DNA of 35,410 nt from Gammaproteobacteria bacterium (GTDB taxonomy: Bacteria; Pseudomonadota; Gammaproteobacteria; Thiohalospirales; Thiohalospiraceae), in contig WFXP01000132.1 in the NCBI GenBank assembly GCA_015490535.1, forward strand, positions 1 to 35,410, written 5' to 3'. The stretch's first letter is position 1. The number at the start of each line of letters is the position of its first letter. Both the position numbers and the translations under genes were made by a program. Of this stretch, positions 21,188 through 35,249 are shown in pieces. Below the pieces are notes generated by a model, which searched no databases, had not been told where the DNA came from, and saw only the letters and a list, made by a program, of their open reading frames with translations.

Positions 21188-21257
21188 CTCAAGACTCCGC
21201 CTTCTGCGGTTGCCGATTATCCCGGATTTTTCCCGCCGCTGCCAGCGTATCCTCCGC

Positions 21258-21610
21258 CAGCACTCCGTCAAGGTGATAAATCAGGAAAGTCTTCCTCGAA
21301 TCGTGTGGGTAAAATGGTAAATCACCGCGTAGCGGCTCCGTCCTTGACAGGCGGAATGCACGCCACATACTCGGTAACCAGAAGGGGATTGGGGCTGTCT
21401 GGCTGGGGACAAGCGGATGTCCACCGCCTGCGCAAATTGCAACTGGTCCGGCTATCCCAAAGTGCCCCCAATCCCCTTCTGCCGACCATCCTCCGGCGTG
21501 CATTCCGCCTGTCAAGGATGATTTACCATTTTACCCACACGATTCGAGGAAGACCCAATCAGGATTCAGCATCCCTCCAATCCTGATTTATTGCCTTGAA
21601 AGAGCACTAG
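21258..21610. mobile_element. Composite element: outer CTAG-type repeat with a nested MITE
   Basis: The left end (CAGCACTCCGTCAAGG, 21258 on) is a decayed form and the right end (CTTGAAAGAGCACTAG, to 21610) a good form of the outer terminal repeat. Inside it, AATCAGGA occurs at 21279-21286 and again at 21557-21564, exactly flanking the GGGTCTTCC-type MITE. Without the insert the outer element would be about 75 bp. The right terminal repeat supplies the last codons and stop of phoR. Confidence 0.8.
21287..21556. mobile_element. MITE of the GGGTCTTCC family, copy 2 (nested)
   Basis: This 270-bp element has long inverted arms, the right end GGAAGACCC and a left end changed to AAGTCTTCC. It is flanked by a perfect 8-bp duplication, AATCAGGA. 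Its left arm carries 16 extra bases (CCGCGTAGCGGCTCCG) between the GTAAATCA and TCCTTGACAGG parts, which accounts exactly for its length difference from copy 1. Small frames inside it on both strands look spurious. Confidence 0.85.
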
Positions 21611-22892: not shown

Positions 22893-23579
22893 TCAACCTT
22901 TTTCGGAGAACCGGTATCCCGCCCCCCTCACGGTCTGGATGAGTCCGTCGCAGCGGTGCGGTTCCAGCGCCTTGCGCAGGCGGCGGATGTGAACATCCAC
23001 GGTGCGCTCCTCGATATATGTGGTGCCTCCCCACACCTGATCGATCAGCTGGTCACGGCTGTAGACCCGCTCCGGGTGGCTCATGAAAAAGCGCAGCAGG
23101 CGATACTCCGTGGGTCCGATCTCGAGCGGCGCGCCGTGGCAGGTGACCCGGTGGCTGGCCTGCTCGAGCCGTAATCCGCCCGCCTCCAGCACATCGTCCT
23201 CCACCGGCGCGACGCGGCGCAGCACGGCCCGGATACGCGCCACCAGTTCGCGGGGTGAGAAGGGCTTGGTCACGTAGTCGTCGGCCCCCACCTCGAGGCC
23301 GCGGATCTTGTCCTCCTCTTCACCCCTGGCGGTCAGCATGATGATGGGCAGATCGCTGGTGGCCGTCTCGCGCCGGAGACGCCGCGCCAGATCCACGCCG
23401 CTCACGTCCGGCAACATCCAGTCCAGCAGCAGCAGATCCGGCCTCTGCTCGAAGATCCGCCTCCTCGCCCCGGCCGCGTCGGCCGCCTCATCCACCTGGA
23501 AGCCCGCGCGGGTGAGGGCGAATCCTATCATCTCCCGGATCGCCGCCTCATCCTCCACCACCAATATCCTGCTGGTCAC
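22893..23579 (-). CDS. phoB: Phosphate regulon response regulator PhoB
   Basis: PhoB activates phosphate-starvation genes when phosphorylated by PhoR. The 228-aa protein has a receiver domain with acidic pocket VVEDE and phospho-Asp53 in [11 protein letters not shown], Thr in MLTARGEE and Lys in [11 protein letters not shown] winged-helix DNA-binding domain (about 130-226) includes [33 protein letters not shown] and [13 protein letters not shown] see no clear Pho box in the short leader before the repeat at 23656. Confidence 0.96.
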
Positions 23580-23655
23580 ACCGGCCTCCCTCCGCTCATT
23601 GGCCCTTCGCCCGAAGTGTGGACCGGTTCGGGTTACAGCGCAACATCAACCTCCA

Positions 23656-23925
23656 CTAGTACTCTTTCAAGGTAATAAATTAGGATTCAGTTGGTCTGTC
23701 AACGTTCAGGGCAAGGCGCTCCTCGCAGCGAATGGCCGTCGCCCTTCGCAAGAGGAGCAACGCCGCCATGGACGTTGACAGACCAACCCTTCGGGCGTCC
23801 CTGTGGTGTCCCGCTGCGGCGTTGCAGTGCTTGACAAGGGAACAACCCTTGCCTGCGCACTGCGCCTTGCCGCGAAACACCACAGGGACGCTGAATCATA
23901 ATTTATTACCTTGAAAGAGTACTAG
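23656..23925. mobile_element. Outer CTAG-type element with two internal hairpins
   Basis: This 270-bp element lies between phoB and folK. Its ends are inverted repeats of about 34 bp, beginning CTAGTACTCTTTCAAGGTAA and ending in the complement at 23925. Inside are two large stem-loops. Stem I pairs 23691-23705 with 23772-23786 (15 bp perfect) and continues inward with GCTCCTC/GAGGAGC. Stem II pairs 23796-23809 with 23877-23890 (14 bp perfect) and continues with GCAGTGC/GCACTGC and CAAGGG/CCCTTG. A small CCC-TTC-GGG hairpin lies between them. There is no credible coding frame. The right end encodes the last nine codons of folK. Confidence 0.85.
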
Positions 23926-24387
23926 GCGCTGCCCGGCATGCCTGAACTCCTGCCACAGCTCCCCCAGAGGGCGTCCCTCCAGGGGGTGCAGCCGGGTCGG
24001 GTCGATCTCCGCCAGAGGGCGCAGGATGAAGGCGTAAGCGGTGATCTCCTCCCGCGGGATGCGGATCCCCTCCTCCTCCAGGACCAGATCGTCATACAGC
24101 AGCAGATCCAGATCCAGGGTGCGTGGACCGAAGCGCGTCCCGCCCCTCCTGCGACCGTGGCGCGCCTCGATACCGCGCAGGATGGCCACCACCTCCCGCA
24201 CCGTCCTGCGGCTGTCAAACCCCACCACCAGGTTCAGGAAATTGGCCCCCCGGAAGCCAACCGCGGCGCTGTCGTAGATACGGGAGAGCAGCAGATCCCC
24301 GAACTCCGCCCGCAGGGAGGAGATTCCGCTGCGGATATTGTGGAGACGATCCAGGTTGCTCCCTACCCCGACGTAGATCCGGGCCAT
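23896..24387 (-). CDS. folK: 2-amino-4-hydroxy-6-hydroxymethyldihydropteridine diphosphokinase FolK
   Basis: FolK transfers pyrophosphate from ATP to the pterin in folate synthesis. The 163-aa protein has MARIYVGVGSNL, GFRGANFLNLVVGFD, the ATP and Mg site FGPRTLDLDLLLYDD and IPREEITAYAFILRPLAEIDP. I use the ATG at 24387, with AGGGAG five bases upstream, just after the folB stop. The last nine residues (LVLFQGNKL) are encoded by the terminal repeat of the neighbouring element, so the original C-terminus is lost or extended; the catalytic part is intact. Confidence 0.94.
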   Translation of the reverse strand: MARIYVGVGSNLDRLHNIRSGISSLRAEFGDLLLSRIYDSAAVGFRGANFLNLVVGFDSRRTVREVVAILRGIEARHGRRRGGTRFGPRTLDLDLLLYDDLVLEEEGIRIPREEITAYAFILRPLAEIDPTRLHPLEGRPLGELWQEFRHAGQRLVLFQGNKL

Positions 24388-24388
24388 G

Positions 24389-24745
24389 CTACTCCCTATG
24401 GCCACGCTCTATGACTACCCCCACCTCCCGGCAGTCACGCAACGCACCTCTCTTGTCGATGCGCAGCCGCAGCCAGCGCACGCCAAACTCCTCCCGTACC
24501 AGCTCCGCCACCCGCTCCGCAAGGGTCTCCACCAGCTGAAACTCGCTGGAGCCCACGAACTCGATCAACCGCTTGGCTACCGCCTTGTAGTCCAGGGTCT
24601 CCCCGATGCGATCGGCCGCCGCCGCCCTGCGGATGTCGGCCGCCATCTCCAGATCCAGGCTGACCACCTGCTTGATACGGCGCTCCCAGTCGAAGATGCC
24701 TATTACCGTTTCTATACGCAGATCACGCAGATAGATGATATCCAT
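24389..24745 (-). CDS. folB: Dihydroneopterin aldolase FolB
   Basis: FolB cleaves or epimerises 7,8-dihydroneopterin to give the substrate of FolK. The 118-aa protein starts MDIIYLRDLRIETVIGIFDWERR and continues with VSLDLEMAAD, a conserved core DYKAVAKRLIEFVGSSEFQLVETLAERVA and a closing RLRIDKRGALRDCREVGVVIER. folB and folK are adjacent and co-directional, two successive steps of the pathway. Confidence 0.94.
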   Translation of the reverse strand: MDIIYLRDLRIETVIGIFDWERRIKQVVSLDLEMAADIRRAAAADRIGETLDYKAVAKRLIEFVGSSEFQLVETLAERVAELVREEFGVRWLRLRIDKRGALRDCREVGVVIERGHRE

Positions 24746-31248: not shown

Positions 31249-32250
31249 TTGAGCGTAGCCCCCAGCTTCCGGAACCGGCTGTTCCCCATCCAGAACAGGC
31301 CGAGACCGGGCTACCGAACCAACCTCCTCCTTCTTTTTCTGCTGCTGGTGGCCGCCGTACCGTTGCGGCCCGCGCTCGCCTTCTCCGGCAGCGAGCTTCT
31401 GCCCATCGAGCTACTGGCCACCATCGGAGGCAAGGGGGGTGACTCCAGGCTGCGCCAGCCGAGCGCGGTTCTGACGGCGAGAAACGGAAACATATTCGTG
31501 CTGGACGGGGCCGTCAACCGGGTCGCAGTGTTCTCGCCACGGGGCAGGTTCCTCTACGATTTCGGACAGGATCACCTGAACATGCCCCTGGGAATGGCCA
31601 TGGACGCCAGGGGACGGCTCTACGTCACCGATACCCGAAAGGGGCGCATCCAGCTGTTCACGTCCCAGGGCGAACACCTGAAGCAGATCGAACTTCCCGA
31701 AAGCAGCAAGGGGATCCCCACCGAACCGGTCGACCTGGCGCTGGACGAGCGACGCAGGCTCCTCTACGTCGTGGACAACCGGAACCACCGCCTTCTCATC
31801 CACGACCTGCGCAAGGGCACCGTAGTCAGGACGGTGGGCAAGATGGGCATGGAGGAGGGAGAATTCAGATGGCCCTTCTCCCTGACACTGGACGGGGACG
31901 GAGTGATCTATCTGGTGGACGTGATAAACACCACGGTCAGGACCATCGATCCCGCACACGACTGGGCGTTCCTGGACAATATTGGAAGCTGGGGGATCCA
32001 GAAAGGCGAGCTGTTCCGTCCCAAGGGTATCGCCATCGACTCGAAGGGGAGATTGCTGGTTTCCGACTCCTACCTTGGGGTGGTACAGATGTTCGACCGC
32101 CAGGGCAACTTCCTGTCCGTTCTGAGCGACAAGGACGGAACCATCCACCGCTTCACCACGCCCGTCCGGCTGTTCGTGGACCGCAGGGATCGGCTCTACG
32201 TGGTGGAGATGTTTGCCAACCGGATAAGCATATTCAGGATGGGCAGATGA
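31249..32250 (+). CDS. Exported NHL-repeat beta-propeller protein
   Basis: The 333-aa protein has an N-terminal hydrophobic leader (NLLLLFLLLVAAVPLRPALA) and about six NHL repeats: LRQPSAVLTARNGNIFVLDGAVNRVAVFS, MPLGMAMDARGRLYVTDTRKGRIQLF, LFRPKGIAIDSKGRLLVSDSYLGVVQMF and similar. NHL propellers usually bind proteins or polymers. The start is TTG with GGAGAG upstream. Its stop overlaps the start of the 24-heme cytochrome (ATGA), so the two are made together; a role in docking or assembling the big cytochrome is inferred. Confidence 0.88.
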   Translation: MSVAPSFRNRLFPIQNRPRPGYRTNLLLLFLLLVAAVPLRPALAFSGSELLPIELLATIGGKGGDSRLRQPSAVLTARNGNIFVLDGAVNRVAVFSPRGRFLYDFGQDHLNMPLGMAMDARGRLYVTDTRKGRIQLFTSQGEHLKQIELPESSKGIPTEPVDLALDERRRLLYVVDNRNHRLLIHDLRKGTVVRTVGKMGMEEGEFRWPFSLTLDGDGVIYLVDVINTTVRTIDPAHDWAFLDNIGSWGIQKGELFRPKGIAIDSKGRLLVSDSYLGVVQMFDRQGNFLSVLSDKDGTIHRFTTPVRLFVDRRDRLYVVEMFANRISIFRMGR

Positions 32251-35249
32251 GAAACGGCAGGGGTTGGTTCCGGTCCGTTCTGCCACTGCTGGCGATACTG
32301 CTGCTGCCGTTCCTGTCCGGCCTGGCCCAGGCCGCCGCCGACAGGCTGGAACGAAACTCGGCGCGGGAGTGCTCGATGTGCCACATACGCTGGGTGGACG
32401 AGTTCAAGACCGAGGGAACCCCGGATCTGCTCATCGACTATCCCCCCACCCGCCAGGTGGCCAACGAGATGATGTGCTACAGCTGCCATGACGGTTCGGT
32501 GGTGGACTCCCGCTGGAGGGTCTGGGAGACATCACGCCACAAGACGGGGGAAAAACCTTCCCACAAGATCACCGTGCCCGAAAACTATCCGCTGGACAGC
32601 AACGGCAACGTACAGTGCTATACCTGTCACTCGGCCCACGGCGTGGAGGGTGGTACGGACATGGCCACCGCCATATTCCTGCGCGAACCCAACGTCAACT
32701 CTTCCATGTGCCGCAAATGCCACCAGGGCAAGGACCGGGGCCCGGATGAAGGATCCCATCCTGTCGACGTGGAGTTCCCGAAGTTCCCCGAAAAGATCCT
32801 CCGCGCCGGAGGCAAGGCGGGAACCGGGAAAACCGTCATCTGTGAATCCTGTCATACCCCGCACGGCAGCACTGCGGAACATTTTCTGGTGGTTCCCAAC
32901 GAAGGCGAGGGCAGCCTGACCCACTCCATGCTGTGCGAAACCTGTCATACCGTATCGCCGGACATCAACAGCGAACAGGTACTGCGGCGCTTCTCACATC
33001 CGGTGGCCGTAAAACTGCCCCGGGAGGCGGAGCTTCCCGAGAGGTGGGACAACGGGGAAAAACCCTATCTCGGCAAGGGCGACACGGTGAACTGCCGCAC
33101 CTGCCACTCGCCCCACAACGGCACGCCAAAGAACCACCTGCTCACCACCAAAAAGAGGGGAGACGAGCTCTGCCTCACCTGCCATACGTCCAAGAAAAGA
33201 ATCTACGGGACCAGGCACGACATCGCCAAAAAGTTTCCGGAGAGCGAGAACGCGGACGGCGAGAAGGCCGCAGCGAAGGGCACCTGCAGAAGCTGTCACT
33301 TCATGCACAAGGGCTACGGGCCCAAGATGTGGGCGAGAAGGGGCGCCGCGGCGACGATGGAGGGGGTTTGCCTCTCCTGTCACTCGGAGGGCGGGATGGC
33401 CGAGGAGAAAACCACGGGCAGATACAGCCATCCGGTGGGAGTCAAGCCGCAGCGGATCAAGCAGGAAGGCGCGGCGCTCCCGCTCTTTACCGACAAGGGG
33501 AGAAGGGACCCGGAGGGGAAGATCTCCTGTGCCTCCTGTCACGACCCGCACCGCTGGGCGCCGGACAGTGACGATCGCGGCGCGGACAGCAAGGAGGGGG
33601 ACGTCAACAACAGTTTCCTGCGCAAGGCCGGCACTCCGGACGGAAAACTTTGCAAGAGCTGTCACGCGAGCAAGTGGTCGGTAATCGGCAGCAAGCACGA
33701 CATGGGCCTCATGGAACCGCACTCGAAGAACGCCAAGGGACAGACCATCGAGGAGTCCGGAGTTTGTGGAGCCTGCCACACGCCGCACAATGCCAAGGCG
33801 GAAAAACTGTGGGCGAGAAGCCCCAAGCATGGCGAGGACAGCATCGAACGGCTATGCACCTCGTGCCACTCCAAGGGACGCGAAGCGGAGCGCAAAACCA
33901 CCGGCGAAAACAGCCATCCATTGGGAGTCAGGCCGGACGGAAGGACCGCCAGAAAGAGCGGCCTGCCCTATTTCACCGAAAGCGGTGAGCGAGACCCGAA
34001 CGGCAACGTCAGCTGCGCCACCTGTCACGATGTCCACCGCTGGGAGCCCGGGGTGGCCGAGGGGCCAGGCAAGCGCAAGATCGAGGGAAACAGGTTCAAC
34101 AGCTTCCTGCGCAAGCCCTACGATGATACGGCAACGCTGTGCGCCTCCTGTCACCGGGAAAACGCCCTTGTTGTCGGCACCGATCATGACATGAACGTAA
34201 CCGGCCCCGGGAGCAGGAACCTGAACGGTGAAACGGTGGAGCAGTCAGGCGTATGCGGTGCATGTCACGCGGTGCACAACGCCTTCGGCAGCCTGCTCTG
34301 GGTGCGCGGCGTGGGATCCGGCGAAAACCGCAACGAGGCGCTGTGCAAGGGGTGTCATGCGCGCCGCAAGGTGGGATCCAAGAAGATCATCAGGGAACCA
34401 AGTCATCCCATGAACAAGGCGGTCTCCGATGCCCGTCCCACCCTGAGACGCGAAACCAGCGCGTTCTACGAACATGCCAGAAAGGATGGCAAGAGCACCG
34501 AACTGCCCCTGTTCAAACCGGATGGGAAGCGCTCCCGGGACGGGGACATCACCTGCCCCACCTGTCATAACGTCCACCGCTGGGATCCCGACAAATGGGC
34601 GAGGGGAAGCGGCCGGAAAATCGAAGGTGACGGCGGCAACAGCTTCCTGCGCAAATCCAATCTTCCCGATTCGGGGCTGTGTGCCACCTGCCACACCCGT
34701 AAGAGATTTGTGGCAGGGACGGATCATGACATGTCGGTTACCGCGCCGCAACAGAAGAACAGCCTGGGACAGACCGTGGCACAGAGCGGCGTGTGCAGCG
34801 CCTGCCACGAGCCCCACGGCTCAACCGCCGGTGGATACCTGCTCTGGGCCAGAAAACTGGGAGCGGGCAGTGACCTGCCCCAGGAGCAGGTGTGCCTGAG
34901 CTGCCACTCGCGCGGGGGGATCGCCGGCGACAAGGTGGTGACGGAGTTCGAACACCCCCGCAATGTAACCATCACGGAGCAGAACCATCCGGGACAGAAC
35001 TTCTACGCCCCTGTCTACAACAAAAAGGGCCGTAAGGTGGATGCGGGCCTGCTCTCCTGCCCCACCTGCCACAATCCACACATCTGGTCAGCCGCCAGAC
35101 CCGGGCCCGGCAAGGGCAAACCCGTGGAGGGCAACGTCAGAAACAGCTTTCTGCGGTTCAGAAGCCGAAACAACATCTGCCGCAACTGCCATGGACTGGA
35201 CAGCCTGGTCAGATACAAGTATTTCCACTCTAGTACTCTTTCAAGGTAA
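32247..35249 (+). CDS. 24-heme c-type cytochrome with four tandem tetraheme modules
   Basis: The 1000-aa protein has a signal peptide (VLPLLAILLLPFLSGLAQA) and 24 CXXCH sites from Cys42 to Cys978, many as CXXCHxxH (doubled-CXXCH type). Hemes 1-7 precede four homologous modules beginning at about residues 309, 469, 632 and 812, each with four hemes and shared marks such as HDM, SGVCGACH, SHPxGV, CHDVHRW and NSFLRK. Heme 24 ends the chain (ICRNCHGLD). Such size and regularity suit long-range electron transfer in the outer envelope or outside it. The ATG at 32247 is chosen since the leader begins there. The last residues and stop (STLSR) come from the outer CTAG-type repeat. Confidence 0.93.
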   Translation: MRNGRGWFRSVLPLLAILLLPFLSGLAQAAADRLERNSARECSMCHIRWVDEFKTEGTPDLLIDYPPTRQVANEMMCYSCHDGSVVDSRWRVWETSRHKTGEKPSHKITVPENYPLDSNGNVQCYTCHSAHGVEGGTDMATAIFLREPNVNSSMCRKCHQGKDRGPDEGSHPVDVEFPKFPEKILRAGGKAGTGKTVICESCHTPHGSTAEHFLVVPNEGEGSLTHSMLCETCHTVSPDINSEQVLRRFSHPVAVKLPREAELPERWDNGEKPYLGKGDTVNCRTCHSPHNGTPKNHLLTTKKRGDELCLTCHTSKKRIYGTRHDIAKKFPESENADGEKAAAKGTCRSCHFMHKGYGPKMWARRGAAATMEGVCLSCHSEGGMAEEKTTGRYSHPVGVKPQRIKQEGAALPLFTDKGRRDPEGKISCASCHDPHRWAPDSDDRGADSKEGDVNNSFLRKAGTPDGKLCKSCHASKWSVIGSKHDMGLMEPHSKNAKGQTIEESGVCGACHTPHNAKAEKLWARSPKHGEDSIERLCTSCHSKGREAERKTTGENSHPLGVRPDGRTARKSGLPYFTESGERDPNGNVSCATCHDVHRWEPGVAEGPGKRKIEGNRFNSFLRKPYDDTATLCASCHRENALVVGTDHDMNVTGPGSRNLNGETVEQSGVCGACHAVHNAFGSLLWVRGVGSGENRNEALCKGCHARRKVGSKKIIREPSHPMNKAVSDARPTLRRETSAFYEHARKDGKSTELPLFKPDGKRSRDGDITCPTCHNVHRWDPDKWARGSGRKIEGDGGNSFLRKSNLPDSGLCATCHTRKRFVAGTDHDMSVTAPQQKNSLGQTVAQSGVCSACHEPHGSTAGGYLLWARKLGAGSDLPQEQVCLSCHSRGGIAGDKVVTEFEHPRNVTITEQNHPGQNFYAPVYNKKGRKVDAGLLSCPTCHNPHIWSAARPGPGKGKPVEGNVRNSFLRFRSRNNICRNCHGLDSLVRYKYFHSSTLSR

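Follow-up and report, generated by a model that had tools for sequence, protein, structure and literature searches.

A discrete 270-nt element lies at the 3′ end of the folK gene in the window (the whole 35,410-nt stretch of DNA that was analysed), defined by two hairpins and by 27-bp perfect ends tipped with CTAG. The reading that we favour, with modest confidence, is that of an IS630-type MITE mobilised in trans, whose interior is a pair of facing hairpins that is under selection and acts in cis. At the level of sequence comparison, the analysis shows the insertion, the kinship of the ends, a recurring architecture, covarying stems and a bias towards one strand; the hairpins probably function as RNA structures acting in cis on read-through transcripts. 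As a MITE family the element is new but of a familiar type; what exceeds this type is the conserved two-hairpin interior. The interior of a MITE is commonly regarded as a leftover, whereas in this case its shape is conserved in several classes of Proteobacteria, frequently at high copy number. Very different bacteria share the shape of the hairpins and not their sequence, which points to a structural function not described so far.

An element with two facing hairpins inserted in folK

The element starts with CTAGTACTCTTTCAAGGTAATAAATTA, the exact reverse complement of which forms its other end (Table 1). Inward of the perfect ends come one mismatch and then GATTCAG, that is seven more matches (34/35), in agreement with the inverted ends of about 34 bp described in the original prediction. 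The perfect outer stems of 15 and 14 bp which it had drawn were also recovered, with 15 pairs in hairpin 1 and 14–15 in hairpin 2, as was the mini-hairpin said to separate the two stem-loops (CCCTTCGGG at 23787–23795). The latter corresponds to the linker CCCTTCGGGCG, and linkers resembling CCCTTCGGGCG are found in many other hairpin pairs. Both hairpins contain, in addition to the core letters CAAGGCG and CAACGCC, an inner stem and a terminal hairpin. Nearly every base had been expected to be paired, and 226 of the 270 bases were so in the RNA fold (−176.3 kcal/mol; none of 200 shuffles was as good). Folding of both strands had been proposed as a check: both proved far more stable than shuffles, with z-scores of −16.6 for the plus strand and −19.5 for the minus strand (−183.3 kcal/mol). 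Folded as single-stranded DNA, the element gave a z-score of −16.8. Since full-length and near-full-length copies recur in its own and in sister genomes, this structure is not due to chance.

Table 1. Coordinates of the element, its parts and the adjacent genes in the window
Feature	Positions	Strand	Basis
Whole element, CTAG tips included	23656–23925		Empty site in G002
Left terminal inverted repeat, 27 bp perfect (34/35 to 23690)	23656–23682	+	
Right terminal inverted repeat	23899–23925	-	
Presumed TA duplication, left copy, within CTAG	23657–23658		
Presumed TA duplication, right copy	23923–23924		
Hairpin 1, core-first on the plus strand	23690–23787	+	
Hairpin 1 core CAAGGCG	23712–23718	+	
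Hairpin 1 core CAACGCC	23758–23764	+	
Linker between the hairpins	23787–23797		
Hairpin 2, core-first on the minus strand	23795–23891	-	
Hairpin 2 core CAAGGCG, read on the minus strand	23863–23869	-	
Hairpin 2 core CAACGCC, read on the minus strand	23818–23824	-	
folK (HPPK) reading frame, last codons and stop from the element	23896–24405	-	Pfam, comparison with G002
PhoB-type response regulator, downstream neighbour	22893–23579	-	Pfam

Pfam names around the element are HPPK, FolB, response regulator and PhoR. A near-identical genome, G002, carries the same place without the element. Its empty site reads CAACCTCCA-CCAG-GCGCTGCC and the window reads CTCCA-CTAG-(262 nt)-CTAG-GCGCTG, with flanks identical at 397/403 and 198/203 bases (98–99%). 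The net gain is 266 bp, which fits a TA or a CTAG duplication, and one C/T difference separates CCAG of the empty site from CTAG. The end of the folK product in the window, RLVLFQGNKL*, is altered compared to G002, its stop being supplied by the element. Judged by this comparison, the element is an insertion into the 3′ end of folK with a clean empty site. In another genome (G274), an element with related ends, of the second hairpin-element family described below, interrupts an IS630 transposase gene, and the other copy shows a TA or TTA duplication. A preference of IS630 for TA in CTAG appears as a title in the reference list of PMC2170065. Mirror-image flanks were observed outside the element in L050 (1501–1822) and L195 (780–937), probably assembly fold-backs at the palindrome, and both loci were excluded from the target-site analysis.

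The ends are related to those of IS630 transposons

One end of L256 (1227 bp, IS630-family, DDE_3), CTAGTAGTCCTTCAATAAGATAAATTAGGAT, matches the window end at 25/31 positions and its other end does so at 23/31, compared to a mean of 12.3 and a maximum of 23 in 20000 shuffles keeping CTAG. Because of this match at 25/31, the element is best read as a non-autonomous IS630-type (Tc1/mariner-like) MITE, which would have inserted at TA within CTAG and would be moved in trans by a transposase of the IS630 family that recognises its ends. The L256 transposase is 58% identical to that of L243 (1248 bp), whose 33-bp perfect ends match those of the hairpin elements L215, L217 and L227 (carrying one, one and two hairpins) at 27, 25 and 27 of 33 positions, respectively, and the window end at only 18/31. 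In addition, TTATTAACCCGGCAA is common to L233 (1097 bp, same genus) and a second hairpin-element family, represented by L147 and L216, with two hairpins, and L164, with one. The IS630 transposase of L243 (1367–2614) is split between two overlapping frames, and a homopolymer run close to where they join may point to a programmed frameshift.

No autonomous copy with exactly the ends of the window element was found, either as a recurring frame inside the unpaired ends of the loci examined, via DDE_3 in 16 genomes (9 with a match) or via a fragment of the L243 transposase in 274 genomes (10 with a match). The hairpin module was absent from 8/8 IS630-bearing loci. A candidate for a cargo-bearing two-hairpin element, contig C338 of G218, was rejected; it looks like two separate short elements.

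Copies of the element and of its ends

The 20-nt end, with at most three mismatches, occurs 85 times in forward and 88 times in reverse orientation in the 2.13-Mb genome of the host, a bacterium related to deep-sea vent species; the reversed control gave none. With at most two mismatches it was detected in 7 of 37 genomes, all of one genus, the host genome included. Among the matches listed, the exact end was found mostly in metagenome-assembled Gammaproteobacteria (HyVt-486, HyVt-540, S140_32, S012_118, Dive96_bin10.247 and others) and also in one contig filed as Zetaproteobacteria. Two further full-length copies with 96% identity are present in the own genome (C24, C2), and near-full-length copies with 79–99% identity occur among the matches listed for sister genomes of the genus. 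The element thus has the characteristics of a MITE: 270 nt, non-coding, with terminal inverted repeats and many copies.

The paired ends in the loci examined (59 distinct pairs) define size classes of 46, 157–158, 239, 260–263, 333–337 and 346–348 nt, among others. Two 46-nt elements consist of the ends alone, and a different large-hairpin interior was found in at least 40 places of the own genome, many of them between the same ends. Since other interiors share these ends and the 46-nt elements have nothing else, the hairpin module is dispensable for movement and can be lost from individual copies. In the 239-nt copies L113, L119 and L176, one hairpin core is replaced by a shorter sequence and the outer stem is still paired. 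Two of the six single-hairpin copies of 157–158 nt (L183 and L193; L195 is also among the six) are chimeric, and their outer stems are broken. The original prediction had named, as evidence against itself, copies lacking compensating changes that preserve the stems: the stems are mostly preserved, these two chimeras being exceptions.

The persistence of chimeric and core-less copies, like the movement of other interiors with the same ends, is in line with a plain IS630 MITE, in which the hairpins would be passive, functionless palindromes with arms kept complementary by hairpin-templated repair or gene conversion. Long palindromes can indeed be homogenised without selection. We return to this explanation with the strand bias.

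Other arrangements were observed. A nested insert of about 70 nt lies within hairpin 1 in L004 (1334–1666) and L205. Elements of a third family, sometimes nested in other elements, have the ends GTAACTATTCAG and a single hairpin with the same type of core (L041 1497–1640, L036, L021). The window itself carries, at 21257–21610, a second element with related ends and a different single large-hairpin interior; the end of this element encodes LVLFQGNKSGLEGC, with which the PhoR-like reading frame terminates.

A hairpin family with a fixed core and facing arrangement

The hairpin family keeps the letters CAAGGCG...CAACGC, and its stems change yet stay complementary. In loci of the vent genus and its relatives, the core pattern occurred 70 times, compared to 0 to 4 times for six control patterns, and a stem scan in the correct inner register gave 120 occurrences, compared to 3 to 14 in five controls. 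The same picture, core letters kept and stems exchanged, was obtained with aligned hairpins, the rows of which were filtered for stems.

A covariance model (R1) was built from 25 aligned hairpins; its E-values are rough. At E ≤ 1e-4, matches were obtained in 96 of 274 Gammaproteobacteria (15 candidates per genome scored). Across the phylum, 67 of 249 genomes matched at E ≤ 1e-5, namely the own genome, 26 of its class and 40 of other classes, these 40 belonging mostly to one family. The module is found again in elements whose ends are unrelated. The carriers that could be named are plasmids of Azotobacter chroococcum (in the cultured strain NCIMB 8003, plasmid pAcX50f at about 19.1–19.4 kb), Pseudomonas aeruginosa PA83 and Halomonas sp. 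PA16-9, where the ends are like CTAGGGTCTGTTGACG; in the P. aeruginosa plasmid, the element lies between two co-directional annotated genes. A search of plasmids gave one matching record, covering 21% of the element, and no match was found in E. coli genomes and phages.

Neighbouring hairpins point towards each other in 62/62 pairs (overlapping loci included, not de-duplicated) and, with a looser core, in 45 of 46 distinct pairs, the remaining pair being in the same direction. An outer repeat scoring at least 15 was present in 21 of the 31 loci examined. Sixteen of these span 261–273 nt despite unrelated ends, and the other five span 183, 208, 255, 283 and 355 nt; in the other 10 loci a convincing outer repeat, or a core matching the pattern, was lacking.

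Rfam 15 gave no match above the gathering threshold in 13 sources, only sub-threshold matches near the element. No description of the two-hairpin module was found in open-access full text, although the stem-loop families of PMC2267715 could overlap with it. There is a fair, slightly less than even chance that the module is an undescribed structured nucleic acid spread across the phylum, made of two facing folds with fixed bulge letters, whose one-strand structure was kept while stems and transposon ends were replaced many times, and which would act alike in either landing direction.

Stems covary and the fold of one strand is kept

The alignment A1 was drawn from stem-filtered hairpins, and its covariation score (0.699 versus 0.24 when shuffled) is partly circular because of this filtering, a circularity that R1 inherits. 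The unfiltered core counts, stem-pairing tests and G-U counts are independent of A1, but the loci of the G-U counts include R1-derived ones. The unfiltered pattern CAAGGCGN{38,39}CAACGCCG had 349 matches in 65 of 274 genomes, and its reversed control 8.

Stem pairing was analysed in 31 unfiltered places from 30 loci. Outer stems paired at 14/20 or more in 19 of them (permuted mean 4.1, maximum 8 in 200), and inner stems at 6/7 or more in only 9 (permuted mean 2.2, maximum 7). In the fixed register, 370 of 558 outer positions paired, compared to a permuted mean of 222.5 and a maximum of 278 in 1000, and sliding the register by 1 to 3 left 37 to 44% of the outer positions paired. Sixteen rows had at least 13/18 pairs; their 5′ arms are on average 29.8% alike, near chance, yet most columns show a base pair in almost every row, and more than one type of pair is used. 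The total of 370/558 also includes the remaining 15 rows, of which many resemble chance matches within coding DNA. Covariance across copies, the second check proposed, came out mostly on the side of preserved outer stems.

If a DNA palindrome alone were kept, G-T and A-C mismatches would be equally common in the core-first orientation. The test set, 133 of 166 distinct places, was chosen by Watson-Crick pairs alone, with one hairpin per arm family. Over 33 arm families, G-U outnumbered A-C by 43 to 15 (p 1.5e-4), and by 15 to 3 in the inner stem. In 27 of the 33 families the core-first strand gives the more stable fold, an energy difference to which the constant core may contribute. With a relaxed core, the counts were 54 to 17 over 41 families. 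Later-fetched loci, excluding known families, gave 15 to 7 over 15 families (p 0.067), the core-first strand being more stable in 13; these loci came via R1, a model that allows G-U. Where both hairpins were present (14 element families), G-U to A-C was 19:6 for the left and 19:3 for the right hairpin, each in its own sense. This excess of G-U over A-C in the core-first orientation means that a single strand's fold is being kept, and not merely a DNA palindrome. Since the hairpins face each other, a bias linked to neighbouring genes or to replication could not favour G-U in both.

These counts bear on the plain MITE described above: the repair which it invokes treats both strands alike, yet both facing hairpins show the excess of G-U in their core-first strand, and the asymmetric letters of the core are retained as stems change. 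We therefore consider it unlikely that the hairpins are passive. The module recurs across the phylum with unrelated ends, covarying stems and strand-asymmetric mismatches, which upholds the view that the element has more structure than a plain MITE needs. The accompanying proposal of a transcribed RNA or a single-strand DNA substrate fits the strand asymmetry, which by itself does not tell RNA from single-stranded DNA.

The bias would accord equally well with folded single-stranded DNA, a recombinase or an HUH-type nuclease recognising on either strand the 5′-proximal hairpin, as with attC or REP. In integron attC sites, stems vary around unpaired letters that are fixed in one strand, a logic which the fixed bulge letters and free stems of the module resemble. 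However, attC boxes (RYYYAAC / GTTRRRY at the hairpin base) were unmatched in hairpins 1 and 2 when read by eye, the base of hairpin 1, GTTGGTC/GACCAAC, being one letter off and that of hairpin 2 unlike. REP and BIME are shorter and tied to a Y1-type transposase, whereas the window element has IS630-type ends, and its ends and target fit IS630 cut-and-paste. The likeness to REP/BIME lies in hairpins of alternating orientation, as given in the accessible part of PMC2817692. On balance, a role as single-stranded DNA substrate appears quite improbable.

Possible action on transcripts

We favour instead a selected molecule that would be RNA in read-through transcripts. Transcription from a neighbouring gene, on either strand, would bring out first the hairpin with the evolutionarily kept fold. 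The conserved fold is the 5′-proximal hairpin on either strand, in keeping with a structure that polymerase or nucleases have to encounter first, whichever side they come from. The hairpin may act in cis on transcripts, for example by protecting message ends or by offering an RNase III site. Such an action would make insertions beside genes tolerable in either orientation, and would help to explain how so many of them are tolerated.

Two GC-rich hairpins between co-directional genes also recall a paired intrinsic terminator, as had been suggested. This part of the original prediction was not supported: a consensus scan of 23500–24100 gave no terminator-like site (GC-rich stem followed by a T run), leaving it a very slim chance. 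In the same interval, no sigma-70-like promoter was found by consensus scan, and this, together with stems that diverge freely, unlike those of a base-pairing regulator, makes it rather implausible that the element encodes a trans-acting small RNA, for all its high copy number and stable single-strand fold. At 44 sites (two overlapping), a heuristic gene call gave 23 tandem, 11 divergent and 10 convergent contexts; by this rough count there is no clear preference for gene 3′ ends.

Comparison with known elements

The accessible text of PMC2229807 describes RUP of Streptococcus pneumoniae as a short non-autonomous element with ends like IS630-Spn1 and TA targets. The window element resembles it in these IS630-like ends and in a presumed TA target; RUP differs by its 107 bp, and facing hairpins with a CAAGGCG/CAACGC core are not described in that text. 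Transcripts of the Correia / NEMIS elements of Neisseria, also MITEs, fold and are cut by RNase III (PMC2229807, PMC10969869). By analogy, and as far as the accessible portions of these sources go, Correia elements would be the nearest precedent for RNA action of the window element; they differ in being cut at the terminal repeats, and no two-hairpin core is described there. According to the available part of PMC3189936, MITEPsy1 of Pseudomonas syringae also inserts at CTAG (or YTAA), but is 100 nt long, with a 4-nt duplication and ends tied to ISPsy2 (IS5 family). Candidatus Thiomargarita nelsonii, a sulfur-oxidising gammaproteobacterium, likewise harbours high-copy hairpin MITEs, set apart, by their description in the accessible text of PMC4853749, by ends of TATAG or 10-bp direct repeats.

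Elsewhere in the window, further copies of the end lie near both contig ends (136–155 and 35234–35253), as if the assembly broke there. A large multihaem cytochrome-like protein with paired CXXCH motifs is encoded at 31869–35249, downstream of a PQQ-propeller protein.
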